Positions 54,165-61,891 of a DNA stretch of 64,000 nucleotides are shown in pieces. The stretch comes from Kordiimonadaceae bacterium. GTDB taxonomy: Bacteria > Pseudomonadota > Alphaproteobacteria > Sphingomonadales > Kordiimonadaceae. The first letter of the stretch is position 1. The number at the start of each line of letters is the position of its first letter. The notes under the pieces are model-generated. The model worked only from the letters and a program-made list of their open reading frames with translations, searched no databases and was not told where the DNA came from. The stretch covers positions 124,001 to 188,000 of the forward strand of contig JAEPQB010000003.1 of NCBI GenBank assembly GCA_017640725.1, read 5' to 3'. Both the position numbers and the translations under genes were made by a program.

Positions 54165-54488
54165 ATGACGACATTTGACGATCGTGAAAAAGCCTTTGAA
54201 GACAAATTTGCCCATGACGCAGACTTGGTGTTTCGTGCCCGTGCGCGCCGCAACCGTCTGTTTGGAGAGTGGCTTGCTGGTGAAATGGGCTTGAGCGGTG
54301 ATGCGGTGAAAGACTATGCTGGGTCGATCGTGGCGGCTGACCTTGAGGAAGAAGGCGATGCTGATGTGGTTCGCAAGGTAGCTGCTGATCTTGAGGGGTC
54401 AGACGTCAGCATGACAGATGCTGAAATCGAAACAAAATTGAATTCTTTCATGGATGCAGCCAAATCCCAGATAATGTCTGAAACATAG
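54165..54488 (+). CDS. F-type ATPase zeta subunit (DUF1476, inhibitor)
   Basis: This 107-residue protein has the DUF1476 pattern. The N-terminal part [20 protein letters not shown] is the inhibitory region of the alphaproteobacterial zeta subunit; the rest is a four-helix bundle with [19 protein letters not shown]. In Paracoccus denitrificans zeta binds F1 and blocks ATP hydrolysis. Its place beside purC is typical. A TPR lipoprotein about 1 kb downstream ends in a domain of this family. Confidence 0.93.
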
Positions 54489-54547: not shown

Positions 54548-55261
54548 CTAGGCTGAGATCCTAGCTTTTTGTCGCTGACGGCGCGCAACCCAGATCAAGC
54601 CTGGCACAAGTAACAGCAATTGGCTGGGCTCAGGCACAGCCACTGGCCCAGAGATTGTGAAGCTTGAACCCCAAGCGGCGGCATTATTCAGATTACCATT
54701 TTGACTGATGGCCTCGGTCAAGGTCGTCGCGTAATCGGGGCCCAGGCTAGCATTGAAATGAAACGGTGTGCCGCCGTTGCTGATAATCTCAGTGAAAGAA
54801 ACATGGTTGGTCGTACCAGCAACATACAAGCCGATTGAATAAGTGCCTGGACTGCTGAAAAAGCTGCCAGCTCCCGTGCTAACGGTCGTCTGCAAATTCG
54901 CTGCTGCTGTGTTTACCGGGATGTTAAGAACATCGATATTGGGGTCGGTTCCCAAGTTGCCGGTCAGCCATGAAAATGCGTTTGTATCTTCGTTTTTCGC
55001 AAACCAGTTGGCCCCAAAGAGTGACAAATTCATCATGTCACACATAGACGTACCATAGGGGGTGTAGCCCACGACAAACAAACGTGAACCACAACCATCA
55101 AGAGCAATATCTTCGCCAAGAACAATGGGTGCGAAACTGCCTGCATCAGCGGAAACATCCCAATAGAATGTTGCCTTTGCAGCAGAACTCAGCATCATTG
55201 AAGAACTCACAATGCCGAAAGTTACCCCAAGCCCTTTGGCTATTGATTTCAACAACTTCAT
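54548..55261 (-). CDS. PEP-CTERM sorted surface protein
   Basis: The 237-residue protein has an N-terminal signal peptide (hydrophobic GLGVTFGIVSSSMMLSSAA) and a typical C-terminal tripartite PEP-CTERM anchor: VPEPSQ, a hydrophobic helix LLLLVPGLIWVA, and RRQRQK. An exosortase should cut at this site and link the protein to the envelope or a matrix polysaccharide. The body is rich in Gly, Ser, Thr and Asn and has no recognised domain. No exosortase gene is in the window. It is divergent from the TPR lipoprotein gene. Confidence 0.85.
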   Translation of the reverse strand: MKLLKSIAKGLGVTFGIVSSSMMLSSAAKATFYWDVSADAGSFAPIVLGEDIALDGCGSRLFVVGYTPYGTSMCDMMNLSLFGANWFAKNEDTNAFSWLTGNLGTDPNIDVLNIPVNTAAANLQTTVSTGAGSFFSSPGTYSIGLYVAGTTNHVSFTEIISNGGTPFHFNASLGPDYATTLTEAISQNGNLNNAAAWGSSFTISGPVAVPEPSQLLLLVPGLIWVARRQRQKARISA

Positions 55262-55481
55262 ACAATTTCACCAACAAAAACCGGCAATCCAGCAAAAAAG
55301 CCAGAGAGCCGCTTCCACACCCCAGTCACAATCTCTAAGTACATGTTAAATTACAATAAATTCATGCAAAATTCAAGGTGTGAGGTGTCGACGGGAACGT
55401 TTTTTTGCGATACGCTCTTAACTGGCGATTGTAGTGGTGAAGAATAGGCAATCGTTCTGATCCAATAGAGGTGCCGGGGCA

Positions 55482-57950
55482 ATGAGTTTTCACAAGGGTT
55501 CAAAAACCATATCCATGTGCTCAAAATTGCTCGCTGTCGGAGTTTTGAGTTTAACACTTGTTTCCTGTGGTGAAGATGAAGCTGTGGTGGCCCAGCGAGA
55601 GCGGTTTGAAGCCTATTCGCAAGCAGATTTGGAGGCCTTGTTACAGGACGGTGAGGGCCGCGAAGTCATCAATGCGATTAACTATTATCGCAATGAAGCT
55701 AAAGCCACCGACGAACACCTTTTTCTTCTGGCCCGAACATATGTGAGTTTCGGCGGCGGAATCGCTGCAGAAGAAACCATCTATCGATTGCATAATCGAG
55801 GATATGACGAAGCCAAAACCGCTCTTGTGCTGGCGCAGGCACTCGTGCTCCAAGGAAAAAATGCCGAAGCCGAAGCGATTTTGGCCAAAAACCAAGCCCA
55901 AACTGATGAACAATATGCCCGCCTGGTTCTGCAAGGCGATATCATGCTGTCCTTGCGAGAGTTTGATCAGGCTGAAGCCTTGTATCTTGCCGCTGTTGAG
56001 GCGGAACCAAACAGTTTCCGGGGGTACTTGGCTGCTGCCTTGTTTTATTTGCAGACTGGAAATTTAACCGAAGCCGCCAAGTTTGCCGAGCAGGCCAGCG
56101 CGCTGGAATTCGACGACCCAATGGTAAGTTATGCTCAAGGCATGGTGGCGCGTTATTCGGGCCGGATTGCAGATGCAAAACAGCATTTTTTGGACGCGAT
56201 TAACGCCAACGGTTCAGACACTCTGTCCCGCCTGGAAGTTGTCGGCATTATGATAGCTGAAGGTGAATTTGAGGCAGCGCAAGAACAATTAGATGCAATC
56301 TATGCAGTGGCCCCGATAAATCCTGTTGCGAACTATTATTCGGCACTTATTCTGGTTAGGAACCAAGAGTTTGATCAGGCGGAAGACCTGTTGTTGAGGA
56401 CCGGCGACTTCACGCGTGACTATCCGCTCGCTGCACAGGTTTATGGGTTTGTTTCCTACGAGCTCGCAAAATATTCAACGGCTATTCCGTATCTGGAAAG
56501 AGCATTGTCCTTTTTCCCGAACGATGCAGACACAAGGCTGGCTCTTGCAGACTCTCTTGCCCGGCGCGGAAGGTCCCAAGAAGCGCTGGATATTCTGCAG
56601 CCATTGATCGAGAGCGGTGATGACGTAACCGCGCTTGTGCACGCTACTGCCGCTGCGGCTGGTCTTGGCAAAGTCAAGGAAGCAAGGCAATATATTGAAC
56701 AAGCAGTTGAGGTGGCGCAAAATAGCGGCGTAACTGACCCGGAAACCCTGCAAACAATTACCCGCCGAGCGGCATTTGCGCGATTTTTGGACGATGATCT
56801 GGACGGTGCAACGGCTTTGTTGGACGCCATGTATGCGGACAATGCCGACGATGTGGAGTCACTAACCAACAAAGCAAACCTGTTTCTGGCAGCCGGGGAC
56901 CTGGAGCGCGCACAAACCGCACTCAATCAACTCGCGTCATTTGACCCGGACAGTGCTGTTGTCGCCAATTTACAGGGCGCCATATATCACCGTCAAAAAC
57001 GCTACCCTGAAGCCGTGGAATTTTATTCAAAGTCAATTTCCACACGGCCACAATATCAGTCTGCGCTGAAAAACCGTGCTTTTGCCTACATCCAGCAAGA
57101 AGATTATGAGCGCGCCAGAGCTGATATTGAAGCACTGCTGCAGTTGACAGAACCTGACCCTCAACTTCGGGCCATGTACGGTCGGTCTTTGTTAGAGACA
57201 GGTGCTGCTCAAGCAGCATTGGACCAATTAAACCAAGCGGCAGAAGACTTACCTGATTTTTTCATAGTTCATGCGGACCGAGCCGAGGCGCTTGCTGAAC
57301 TTGGGCACTATTCGCGTGCAATTTCCATTGCAGGTGTCGCCAAACGAGCTGCTCGATATAACACTGAGTTTAATGCCTATATGGACGAGAAAGTCGCAGA
57401 ATGGGAGGCCATTCAGGAGGCTCAGGAGCAAGCCGCGGAAGAAGAGCGTCAAGAGCGGCTTGCAAAGGCTGAAGAGGAACGCAAAGAGGAGCAGGCCCGT
57501 CAGCAGGCTATATTGGAAGAAGCTGGTGATCTGCTTGACGAAGAAGATGACCAGACTGAGTTGATGGCCGAATTGGAGCGCATCGCCGAGGAAAACCGCA
57601 AATTGCGGGCCGAGGAGGAACAAGCGGCTTTGGAACAGGCCTTAGAGGCGAACCAGTTGACCCCCGAGCAGGCCGAACAACAAGCCAGAGAGCAGAGGGT
57701 CCGCGATGCACGGAACCAATATTTTGGGCTCTGGCTCGCCAATGAAATTGGATTGACTGGCGAGGCGGCACTCCAATTTGCTGCGGTCACCGCTGAGGCC
57801 GATAAAATTGAACCGGGGGATACCGACCTAATTCGAAAAGCAATCGCCGATATCGAGGCTGCAGGATTAACGGCAACGATTCAATCGATAGAAGCAAAGT
57901 TGGCCGAATTTCGGGAACAGGCACTGCAGTCAGACCAGCAGGATCAATGA
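55482..57950 (+). CDS. TPR lipoprotein with C-terminal F-ATPase-zeta-like domain
   Basis: The 822-residue protein begins with a lipoprotein leader (LLAVGVLSLTLVSC, lipid Cys near residue 29). At least ten TPR repeats follow, from about 35 to 630 (for example the ERAQTALNQLASFDPDSA and PEAVEFYSKSISTRPQY units), then a charged coiled coil (about 635-735). The last 85 residues are a zeta-subunit-like domain: DARNQYFGLWLANEIGLTG aligns with [19 protein letters not shown] of the DUF1476 protein at 54165. The zeta inhibitory N-terminus is absent and replaced by coiled coil. TPR lipoproteins linked to PEP-CTERM systems (PrsT) are similar in plan; a PEP-CTERM gene lies next to it. No function can be assigned. 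Confidence 0.8.
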   Translation: MSFHKGSKTISMCSKLLAVGVLSLTLVSCGEDEAVVAQRERFEAYSQADLEALLQDGEGREVINAINYYRNEAKATDEHLFLLARTYVSFGGGIAAEETIYRLHNRGYDEAKTALVLAQALVLQGKNAEAEAILAKNQAQTDEQYARLVLQGDIMLSLREFDQAEALYLAAVEAEPNSFRGYLAAALFYLQTGNLTEAAKFAEQASALEFDDPMVSYAQGMVARYSGRIADAKQHFLDAINANGSDTLSRLEVVGIMIAEGEFEAAQEQLDAIYAVAPINPVANYYSALILVRNQEFDQAEDLLLRTGDFTRDYPLAAQVYGFVSYELAKYSTAIPYLERALSFFPNDADTRLALADSLARRGRSQEALDILQPLIESGDDVTALVHATAAAAGLGKVKEARQYIEQAVEVAQNSGVTDPETLQTITRRAAFARFLDDDLDGATALLDAMYADNADDVESLTNKANLFLAAGDLERAQTALNQLASFDPDSAVVANLQGAIYHRQKRYPEAVEFYSKSISTRPQYQSALKNRAFAYIQQEDYERARADIEALLQLTEPDPQLRAMYGRSLLETGAAQAALDQLNQAAEDLPDFFIVHADRAEALAELGHYSRAISIAGVAKRAARYNTEFNAYMDEKVAEWEAIQEAQEQAAEEERQERLAKAEEERKEEQARQQAILEEAGDLLDEEDDQTELMAELERIAEENRKLRAEEEQAALEQALEANQLTPEQAEQQAREQRVRDARNQYFGLWLANEIGLTGEAALQFAAVTAEADKIEPGDTDLIRKAIADIEAAGLTATIQSIEAKLAEFREQALQSDQQDQ

Positions 57951-59393: not shown

Positions 59394-59451
59394 CTTGCAG
59401 CCAGAATTTTTGCGTGAGCCAAACTCACCACCGAGCAAAGAAGGAAACACC

Positions 59452-59751
59452 ATGGAATATCGGATCGACAAGGATGGCAGTAACGTAACTGTTGTATTCA
59501 CGGGCGATATCACTTTTTCAGAAAACGTCTCTTTTCGTCAGATTTTGAAAGAGCTGGGCGAAAGTGACATTCAAACTTGCACGTTTGATCTTGGAAACGT
59601 TGGCATGGTAGACTCTGCCGGTCTTGGTATGTTCCTGATTGCAAAAGAGCAAGCGGATACAAGCGGTTGGAAGTTGACTGTATCTGGCGCGCAAGGCCAT
59701 GTGGCAAGCATGCTGAAGTTGACAAAACTGTCTGATCTCCTCGCGGGCTAG
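59452..59751 (+). CDS. STAS-domain anti-sigma factor antagonist-like protein
   Basis: This 99-residue protein is a bare STAS domain. VDSAGLGMFL holds the serine that is phosphorylated in SpoIIAA/RsbV-type antagonists, followed by KLTVSGAQGHVASMLKLTK. Unphosphorylated it would bind its partner kinase or anti-sigma factor. AAGGAAAC precedes the ATG at 59452, which is preferred over an upstream ATG at 59395. The next gene, 28 bases away, encodes both a PP2C phosphatase and an RsbW-type ATPase, the expected partners. Confidence 0.9.
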   Translation: MEYRIDKDGSNVTVVFTGDITFSENVSFRQILKELGESDIQTCTFDLGNVGMVDSAGLGMFLIAKEQADTSGWKLTVSGAQGHVASMLKLTKLSDLLAG

Positions 59752-59779: not shown

Positions 59780-61891
59780 ATGCTGGGAAATTCACCCGAG
59801 TCAAATCCTGTACCTGGAAGAAATAAAGCTCTTCCGGAAGGCGTGAGCAGCGCCCATATCCTCGTTGTGGACGATATGCCACTCATGCGAAAAATGATTG
59901 GTATGTGCCTCGAGCGGGGAGGATTTCACAATATTAGCTTTGCTGAAGACGGCGACGAGGCTCTGGATCAGATAGCGGAGTCTCAACCAGACCTGGTGAT
60001 CCTTGACCTCAATATGCCCAGAGTGTCCGGATACGACGTTTGCAAGCAATTACGTGCAGATGATCGAACAGCAAACTTGCCGATTTTGGTTCAGTCTGCG
60101 TCTGAAACAGCTGAAGAACGTGTAGAAGTTTTCGCCGTGGGCGCAACTGATTTTGTTTCAAAGCCCATTAACCACCCGGAGTTGCTTGCGCGCGTTTGCA
60201 TGCACTTGGAAAACCGCTTCCTGATCAGAAGTCTAAGCGATTTTCAGGACATGATGCAGAGCGAGCTGAAGATGGCTCGCGAGATGCAGCATTCTTTGTT
60301 GCCGGAAACGCAGGTAATTGAAGAAGTAGAAACAGTCAGTGACGCCAAAATTGAAGCGTTTTACAAGGCCTCTTTTGAATTGGGTGGAGATCTCTGGGGC
60401 ACGTGGCCTTTGCCAGGCAACAAGTTGGGCATTTATGTTCTTGATGTGACTGGGCACGGCGTTGGTGCGGCGCTTAATACCTTCAGTTTGCATGCCACCA
60501 TGGCTCGCTTTGAAGACAAGAAGCTTGATCCAGCTGCCTTTATGGATGCCCTCAACAGTTCACTGGTTGGATCGTTCCAGTTAGGTCGATTCGCCACCAT
60601 GTTTTATGCTGTGCTCGACTGTCAGAGCCACGAACTGCTGTATGCAGGAGCGGGGGCGCCCAGGCCAATTATTTTTGGTGCGAACGGTAGTCGCACACTT
60701 GATAGTTCTGGCCTGCCGATTGCGATCGTTAAGTCAGCAACTTACGAAAACAAAACCGACCGATTGGAGCCTGGTGAAAGTCTTTTCTGTTATTCTGACG
60801 TACTTGTCGAAGCCGAACAGCCAGACGGATCTATGCTGGGAGAAGAAGGTCTTGTTCAATGGATCGAAGAAGCGTCAACAGCTAGCGGACGCGGATCGTC
60901 GGTAAAGCATCTATTGGATCGATTCTATGAAGGGCAAGATGAAAATTTACCTGATGATCTGACAGCCGTTGCAATCCACCGAAATGAAGGAAGCGCCAAT
61001 TCTGCCAACGGCAACGAACACGAGCCTTCAAAAGTTTTGTTGCTTTCAGAGACCGAAAATACCGATTTAATGAAGTCACTTGTGTCTCCTGGGCTCGACA
61101 TTATTCAGTCGCGTATAGGTGAATACACTGCCGCAGAAAATTTTGATTTTTCTGCCGTGATAATTGACGGAGCAGATGATTTCGAAGCTGTGAAAGTCGG
61201 TTTGGCACTGGTTGATGATCATTATGTGGAGCGTGGCGGGCCTGTAGTGGTGGCATTGAAGCATGCGCCTGAACCGAATGACCCAATTTTGTCGTTCGAT
61301 AGGGTTAGGTACTGCGATGTCGGTCAGGGTGTAGATGGGTTGCGGCGACTGGTAGCAGAAGAGGCGGACGATTTTATACGGATTTGTGCGCTGCGTGCTG
61401 CACTTGAGGCTGACCATGCTGCAGAAACCGTTGATCTGGATGGCACCTATCGATTTGCGTCGCGCCGTGAAGCTCAGAAATTGGCAATGACGTTTTCACA
61501 GGCCAGCACGGACCCTGTTCCTCTGGCAATTGGCTTGTCTGAGTTGTTTTTGAATGCCATCGAACATGGCTGTTTGGAGATTGGGCACAACGAAAAAGGG
61601 GAGCTGATTGAGAATGGTCGGCTCAATGAAGAAATCATCCAAAGACGTCGGTTGGAAAAGTATCGCAGTCGGTTCGCAACCGTGATCGTCACGGAAGAGG
61701 GTGACACCATTAAGTTCCGTGTTGAAGACCCTGGCAATGGATTTGATTATTCCGCTTACTTGGAGGACGACGAAGGCCACTCCAAAAAACATGGCCGTGG
61801 CATCGCTATGGCAAAAGGCTGCTTCCAATCACTGACTTACCTGGAAAAAGGAAACATTGTTGAAGCAGAAGTTTCTCGGTCTTCGGGCTAA
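59780..61891 (+). CDS. REC-PP2C phosphatase fused to an anti-sigma-type ATPase
   Basis: The 703-residue protein combines both enzymes of a partner-switching module. Residues about 25-150 are a receiver with a DD pair (VVDD), the phosphorylatable Asp in LVILDLNMP and a Lys in DFVSKP. About 165-400 is a SpoIIE/PP2C phosphatase: FELGGDLWGTW, DVTGHGVGAAL, DENLPDDLTAVAI. About 425-540 resembles a second receiver (LLLSETENTD, AVIIDGADD) without the usual Lys. About 560-703 is an RsbW-like ATPase: GLSELFLNAIEHG (N box), EDPGNGFDY and KHGRGIAMAKG (G boxes). The upstream STAS protein is the likely substrate. It should set the activity of a general-stress or surface-response output. No sigma factor is in the window. 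Confidence 0.88.
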   Translation: MLGNSPESNPVPGRNKALPEGVSSAHILVVDDMPLMRKMIGMCLERGGFHNISFAEDGDEALDQIAESQPDLVILDLNMPRVSGYDVCKQLRADDRTANLPILVQSASETAEERVEVFAVGATDFVSKPINHPELLARVCMHLENRFLIRSLSDFQDMMQSELKMAREMQHSLLPETQVIEEVETVSDAKIEAFYKASFELGGDLWGTWPLPGNKLGIYVLDVTGHGVGAALNTFSLHATMARFEDKKLDPAAFMDALNSSLVGSFQLGRFATMFYAVLDCQSHELLYAGAGAPRPIIFGANGSRTLDSSGLPIAIVKSATYENKTDRLEPGESLFCYSDVLVEAEQPDGSMLGEEGLVQWIEEASTASGRGSSVKHLLDRFYEGQDENLPDDLTAVAIHRNEGSANSANGNEHEPSKVLLLSETENTDLMKSLVSPGLDIIQSRIGEYTAAENFDFSAVIIDGADDFEAVKVGLALVDDHYVERGGPVVVALKHAPEPNDPILSFDRVRYCDVGQGVDGLRRLVAEEADDFIRICALRAALEADHAAETVDLDGTYRFASRREAQKLAMTFSQASTDPVPLAIGLSELFLNAIEHGCLEIGHNEKGELIENGRLNEEIIQRRRLEKYRSRFATVIVTEEGDTIKFRVEDPGNGFDYSAYLEDDEGHSKKHGRGIAMAKGCFQSLTYLEKGNIVEAEVSRSSG

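Follow-up and report, generated by a model that had tools for sequence, protein, structure and literature searches.

A TPR lipoprotein encoded in the window (the whole 64,000-nucleotide stretch of Kordiimonadaceae DNA analysed here) ends in a domain that is homologous to zeta, the inhibitor of the alpha-proteobacterial F-ATPase. Among the genomes searched the fused form is confined to one genus, in which it has a single origin. The fused gene is an uninterrupted open frame (55482–57950, + strand) coding for 822 aa. The features of the locus are as follows:

54165..54488, + strand: free-standing zeta subunit gene, inhibitory N-terminus included (PF07345 over positions 1–102 of 102, 131.3 bits)
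54548..55261, − strand: PEP-CTERM protein, its gene divergent from that of the TPR lipoprotein (TIGR02595, 18.5 bits; cut-off 16)
55262–55481: intergenic stretch between the PEP-CTERM and TPR lipoprotein genes
55482..57950, + strand: TPR lipoprotein of 822 aa ending in the zeta domain (open frame, TPR and PF07345 matches, five orthologs of the same architecture)
55482..55568, + strand: putative lipoprotein leader with lipobox LVSC, Cys29 and Gly at +2 (pattern check; lipobox in 6/6 fused orthologs)
55578..57350, + strand: TPR solenoid, residues about 33–623 (Pfam TPR families; paired helices in the full-length prediction; PrsT TIGR02917 matched remotely)
57363..57650, + strand: charged helical stalk, predicted helices 628–684 and 691–723 (full-length model)
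57663..57947, + strand: predicted zeta-type four-helix bundle, residues 728–822

A zeta domain on a TPR lipoprotein

The original prediction rested on an ungapped alignment of 69 residues with 30 identities counted by hand, and that count proved exact: residues 742–810 (57705–57911) align with residues 27–95 of the zeta encoded upstream, and the best identity count in 5000 segment shuffles, taken over all offsets, was 17. BLASTP of the fused domain against the local zeta gave 33/76 identities (E 1e-17, with that single sequence as the database). When the full protein was run through hmmscan PF07345 was matched at residues 732–816 with 45.7 bits (E 9.4e-12), above the curated cut-off of 25, and the last 89 aa alone, the part for which a match had been expected, gave a significant 52 bits (E 1e-13); the fused domains of the six genomes described below score 51.7–70.0 bits. 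Profile–profile comparison with zeta returned a probability of 99.6 (E 9.8e-24). The structure prediction also agreed with expectation, giving a four-helix bundle like that of the zeta globular domain, and the top three PDB matches by sequence are all zeta structures (2LL0, E 6.5e-9; 2KZC, 2.5e-7; 7VKV, 5.1e-5). The domain is that of zeta in sequence and predicted fold, but its build is not that of a zeta subunit.

TPR families in Pfam span most of the length of the protein. The leader had been read as that of a lipoprotein, and the lipobox ending in Cys29 recurs in all six fused orthologs, as judged by a pattern check without a signal-peptide predictor; the mature parts of all six have no Cys beyond the lipobox Cys. 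Among 16 TPR copies found at this locus in the genus two fall outside the lipobox pattern (one of the G013 copies, with Cys18 after HA, and the G001 copy, without Cys) and neither is a fused form. Confidence in the full-length model is low at 681–691 and at 720–726, within the stalk.

Thirteen residues that are near-invariant in 34 separate zetas are retained in every fused domain (R29, N30, G34, W36, A38, D59, E62, G64, D67, R70, K71, D75 and A99 in zeta numbering). Absent from all six are F15, H17, D18, F23 and Gln102, the last of which is present in 34/34 separate zetas, while K14, R28 and V68 are each retained in one fused domain only. Positions 1–13 were trimmed from most fused rows of this residue alignment; in the ungapped alignment the window protein has zero identities at zeta positions 1–15, and the PF07345 match starts at profile position 16–26 in five of the six fused forms and at 9 in the sixth (G009). 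The proposed loss of the inhibitory N-terminus is thus borne out by the missing residues (K14 being gone from five of the six): the conserved segment 1–18 is lacking and a predicted helical stalk stands in its place. In the sections of PMC5795051 that deal with Pd-zeta in solution, residues 1–18 are unstructured, residues 19–103 form the bundle, and helix 4 contacts an alpha subunit in the complex; PMC9317440, in the part consulted, terms the globular domain the anchoring domain, held mainly on F1 beta, and describes zeta as a family essentially exclusive to alpha-proteobacteria that inhibits their F-ATPase. The fusion thus has the part of zeta that anchors, but lacks the brake.

The zeta domain is conserved on a par with the TPR part and above the stalk, mean pairwise identity among the six fused proteins being 0.55 for the zeta domain (1% gaps), 0.57 for the TPR part, 0.41 for stalk residues 631–739, 0.34 for the leader region and 0.11 for the C tail.

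Distribution and origin of the fusion

A zeta match was found in 27/29 genomes of the family Kordiimonadaceae, and in six of the 29, the window genome being one of them, a second zeta match lies inside an open frame of 828–848 aa. All six belong to the window's genus, whose nearest named relatives are Kordiimonas, and each also has a complete separate zeta. The search for further TPR–zeta fusions thus yielded five genomes with the same architecture, and as these share the frame without an internal stop the continuity claimed for it from one genome holds in all; the five proteins are 43–58% identical to the window protein over the full length. Proteins from three named loci (L062–L064) are 100% identical to those of three of the family genomes.

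The fused domains form one clade, with support of 97/97 in a first tree, where it is nested among Kordiimonas zetas, and of 97/95 in a second, from which four rows were dropped (L076, L082, L084 and L087) and which gave a subclade support of 89/93 with a long-branch warning. In a purL/Q/C tree (a quick search with SH-aLRT only, keeping 15/17 genomes after G014 and G020 were dropped for short data) the six fusion genomes fall within a seven-genome clade (SH-aLRT 99), of which G021 is the only member without a TPR gene at the locus; the stretches fetched for G018 and G022 held none of the three genes. The locus also supplied ten zeta-less TPR proteins, and a search of these for a trace of the zeta domain found none (best E 0.54). 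The simplest account is one gain in the seven-genome clade, followed by gene loss in the G021 line.

A duplicated zeta gene had been put forward as the source of the domain. Descent from zeta and a single origin stand, while the neighbouring zeta is no more than a candidate donor: an AU test did not reject a tree that groups the 19 family-genome zetas to the exclusion of the fused domains (p 0.35, although two further Kordiimonadaceae rows, L071 and L073, stood on the other side, which makes the test unclean), and the fused domain is closest to the zeta of its own genome in only one of the six.

When the last 186 aa were used as query against 196 genomes of the order, stalk-to-domain matches among the matches listed came from the same six genomes only, and a PF07345 search of 385 genomes of the class gave a match in 248; both sets were drawn from larger groups. 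Re-searching the 18 genomes outside the family with two PF07345 matches gave a longest second-match frame of 207 aa. Eleven long frames with a zeta match (333–745 aa from stop to stop) were rejected as fusions, as all eleven zetas have their own N-terminus and start Met, and the upstream parts read, by eye, like chance open frames. No second origin of the fusion was seen among the matches listed for the 196 order and 385 class genomes, in the 18 two-copy genomes or in the 11 long frames. A simple ORF caller was applied to six of the two-match loci. Two of them, L123 and L125, encode zeta bundles that lack the inhibitory segment, in frames of 161 and 173 aa; the genomes concerned (G376 and G156), from other alpha-proteobacteria, contain a full-length zeta match too. 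L117 has an altered N-terminus, and no zeta reading was obtained for L119, L120 and L124. The separate zeta as query returned 26 loci, and 13 plasmid records had a match, known by annotation names. With the full-length protein as query the genome contig collection gave no matches, L062–L064 being orthologs there that short patterns missed. The fusion had been thought undescribed, in keeping with which the open-access papers found to name DUF1476 make no mention of fusion, TPR or tetratricopeptide; no mention of PF07345 was found in the open-access literature.

The PEP-CTERM gene and the likeness to PrsT

The gene order purL–purQ–purC, zeta, PEP-CTERM gene, TPR lipoprotein, MFS, STAS, SpoIIE recurs partly or wholly across the genus. 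The PEP-CTERM protein of the window passes the TIGR02595 cut-off only narrowly and has no Pfam match; its relatives, identified by similarity and not by motif, are encoded divergently beside 14/16 TPR copies, the exceptions being the G016 copy, near a contig end, and one of the two G013 copies. In three genomes whose zeta gene adjoins the MFS gene (G012, G021 and G022) neither a PEP-CTERM nor a TPR gene was found at the locus. The divergent gene is the strongest clue to the job of the scaffold, and from it we infer that the TPR lipoprotein works with the PEP-CTERM protein. A sigma-54-like motif of the type described for PEP-CTERM genes was not found toward the PEP-CTERM gene in any of the 14 intergenic regions, and one loose match faces the TPR gene, in G014. 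Two loci (L130 in G013 and L133 in G015) have two TPR lipoprotein genes each, and PEP-CTERM relatives lie next to these or in between. Farther along the window a STAS gene (59395–59751, + strand) is followed by one for a response regulator–SpoIIE phosphatase–HATPase protein (59780–61891, + strand), a partner-switching pair that lies near the locus in much of the genus.

PrsT, according to the relevant portion of PMC1569441, was named for its link to the PEP-CTERM system, and in Aquincola, as far as the excerpt of PMC9850573 goes, prsT is required for flocs and an upstream PEP-CTERM gene is involved. Like a PrsT, the window protein combines a lipoprotein signal (lipobox by pattern) with TPR repeats, and its genome has both exosortase and PEP-CTERM genes; there are two exosortase (PF09721) matches above cut-off, the better of them about 0.47 Mb from the fused gene on the same contig. 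The TIGR02917 match covers residues 77–724, but at 181.6 bits it falls below the equivalog cut-off of 312.2 (two relatives score 197.9 and 224.4 bits), and its score does not certify the protein as a PrsT. The only NCBIfam model above its cut-off, the SctY type III secretion chaperone (86.7 against 70 bits, over four stretches), was taken as a TPR cross-match. Outside the window a 937-aa frame with a PrsT-like match lies some 13 kb away from the top exosortase match (G000:C8:669504-671207 and C8:655937-656680) and is, by size and place, the likelier PrsT of this genome. No mention of Kordiimonas in connection with PEP-CTERM was found in the open-access literature.

Possible roles and closest known systems

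With modest confidence we take the protein to be an envelope lipoprotein whose once-added, zeta-derived tip bundle serves as a docking module for a new partner in the PEP-CTERM or surface-matrix pathway. The leader and the lipidated Cys29 would tether it to the membrane, facing the periplasm as the leader pattern suggests. The bundle, presumably derived from the globular, anchoring half of the F-ATPase zeta, would have been acquired a single time by an existing PrsT-like TPR lipoprotein, in the common ancestor of a Kordiimonas clade. The TPR part would then handle the PEP-CTERM protein or a matrix partner and the bundle at the stalk tip would dock to a further protein, so that the partner-holding job of the zeta bundle would be carried over to a new partner; the gene pairing and the role of the bundle in zeta point to such docking and to such a partner. 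As the inhibitory tail is gone and the bundle is expected in the periplasm, no braking of F1 would be looked for. All ten TPR relatives at the locus outside the clade lack the domain, which should therefore be dispensable for the basic job of the scaffold.

Four other explanations, and one bolder reading, were weighed against docking. The bundle might be a periplasmic small-ligand sensor in which the nucleotide site of zeta is kept and a nucleotide of the periplasm or the cell exterior, or some other phosphate compound, is signalled to the scaffold through the stalk, and we regard this as unlikely: eight of the 13 retained residues are charged or polar (R29, N30, D59, E62, D67, R70, K71 and D75) and a nucleotide site in Pd-zeta is reported in a passage of PMC9317440, although the same residues may merely hold the fold and the affinity of that site is said there to be low. 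A purely passive function, in which the bundle would cap the stalk tip or act as a spacer by virtue of a stable helical fold and have no specific partner, seems rather improbable. TPR relatives outside the clade do finish in a charged tail without the domain, and G021 and, by its zeta, G022 are in the clade yet have no gene at the locus, but conservation equal to that of the TPR part and the retention of near-invariant polar residues are more than a spacer should need. We are more doubtful still of a far-reaching proposal in which the zeta domain, exapted once into a PEP-CTERM-linked surface scaffold, still binds nucleotide and lets the envelope read periplasmic or extracellular ADP/ATP.

It is very improbable that the protein, at full length or as a shorter form begun at an internal start codon, is cytoplasmic and acts on F1, for example by filling the zeta anchoring site without braking. 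The excerpt of PMC9317440 treats the globular domain as the anchoring part, zeta domains free of the inhibitory segment are also encoded on their own, in short frames, in two other alpha-proteobacteria (L123 and L125), and three TTG codons accompanied by a ribosome-binding-like motif lie ahead of the domain in the window gene. However, no start codon in the stretch scanned is accompanied by such a motif in the remaining five fused genes, and an internal start was rejected as the fused genes share none that has a ribosome-binding motif; the lipobox and the loss of Gln102, both seen in 6/6 fused forms, speak against F1 binding or inhibition. The chance that an assembly or sequencing error joined two genes is negligible, in spite of a zeta gene 1 kb upstream, being refuted by orthologs whose joined frame has no stops in six genomes at the divergence given above and by a domain that differs from the local zeta at 43/76 aligned residues.

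The docking module that we favour has its closest counterpart in zeta of the F1FO-ATPase (PF07345/DUF1476; 2LL0, 2KZC and 7VKV), to which it is alike in sequence, predicted four-helix bundle and near-invariant residues; unlike zeta, the fused form has neither the inhibitory N-terminus nor Gln102, is carried on a scaffold with a lipoprotein leader, and coexists with a complete separate copy. PrsT (TIGR02917, XrtA/PEP-CTERM system TPR-repeat protein) shares the lipobox, the TPR solenoid, the adjoining PEP-CTERM gene and a remote profile match, whereas the fused form scores below the equivalog cut-off, lies outside the exosortase locus and ends in a stalk and zeta bundle. The zeta-less Kordiimonas TPR lipoproteins (such as L072, L078 and L070) are alike in neighbourhood, lipobox, TPR part and charged tail, but their alignment stops near residue 690 of the window protein, with no trace of zeta beyond. 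Set against these systems, the fusion is a known domain in a new architecture and suggests that one marine bacterial group has turned an ATP-synthase regulator into a component of its envelope. The globular zeta domain can evidently be retained without its inhibitory tail, and probably at a distance from F1; the folding or ligand-binding work of the conserved residues is thereby separated from their work on F1, and one genus with related proteins that have or lack the domain offers a natural experiment on PrsT-like proteins in the PEP-CTERM system.
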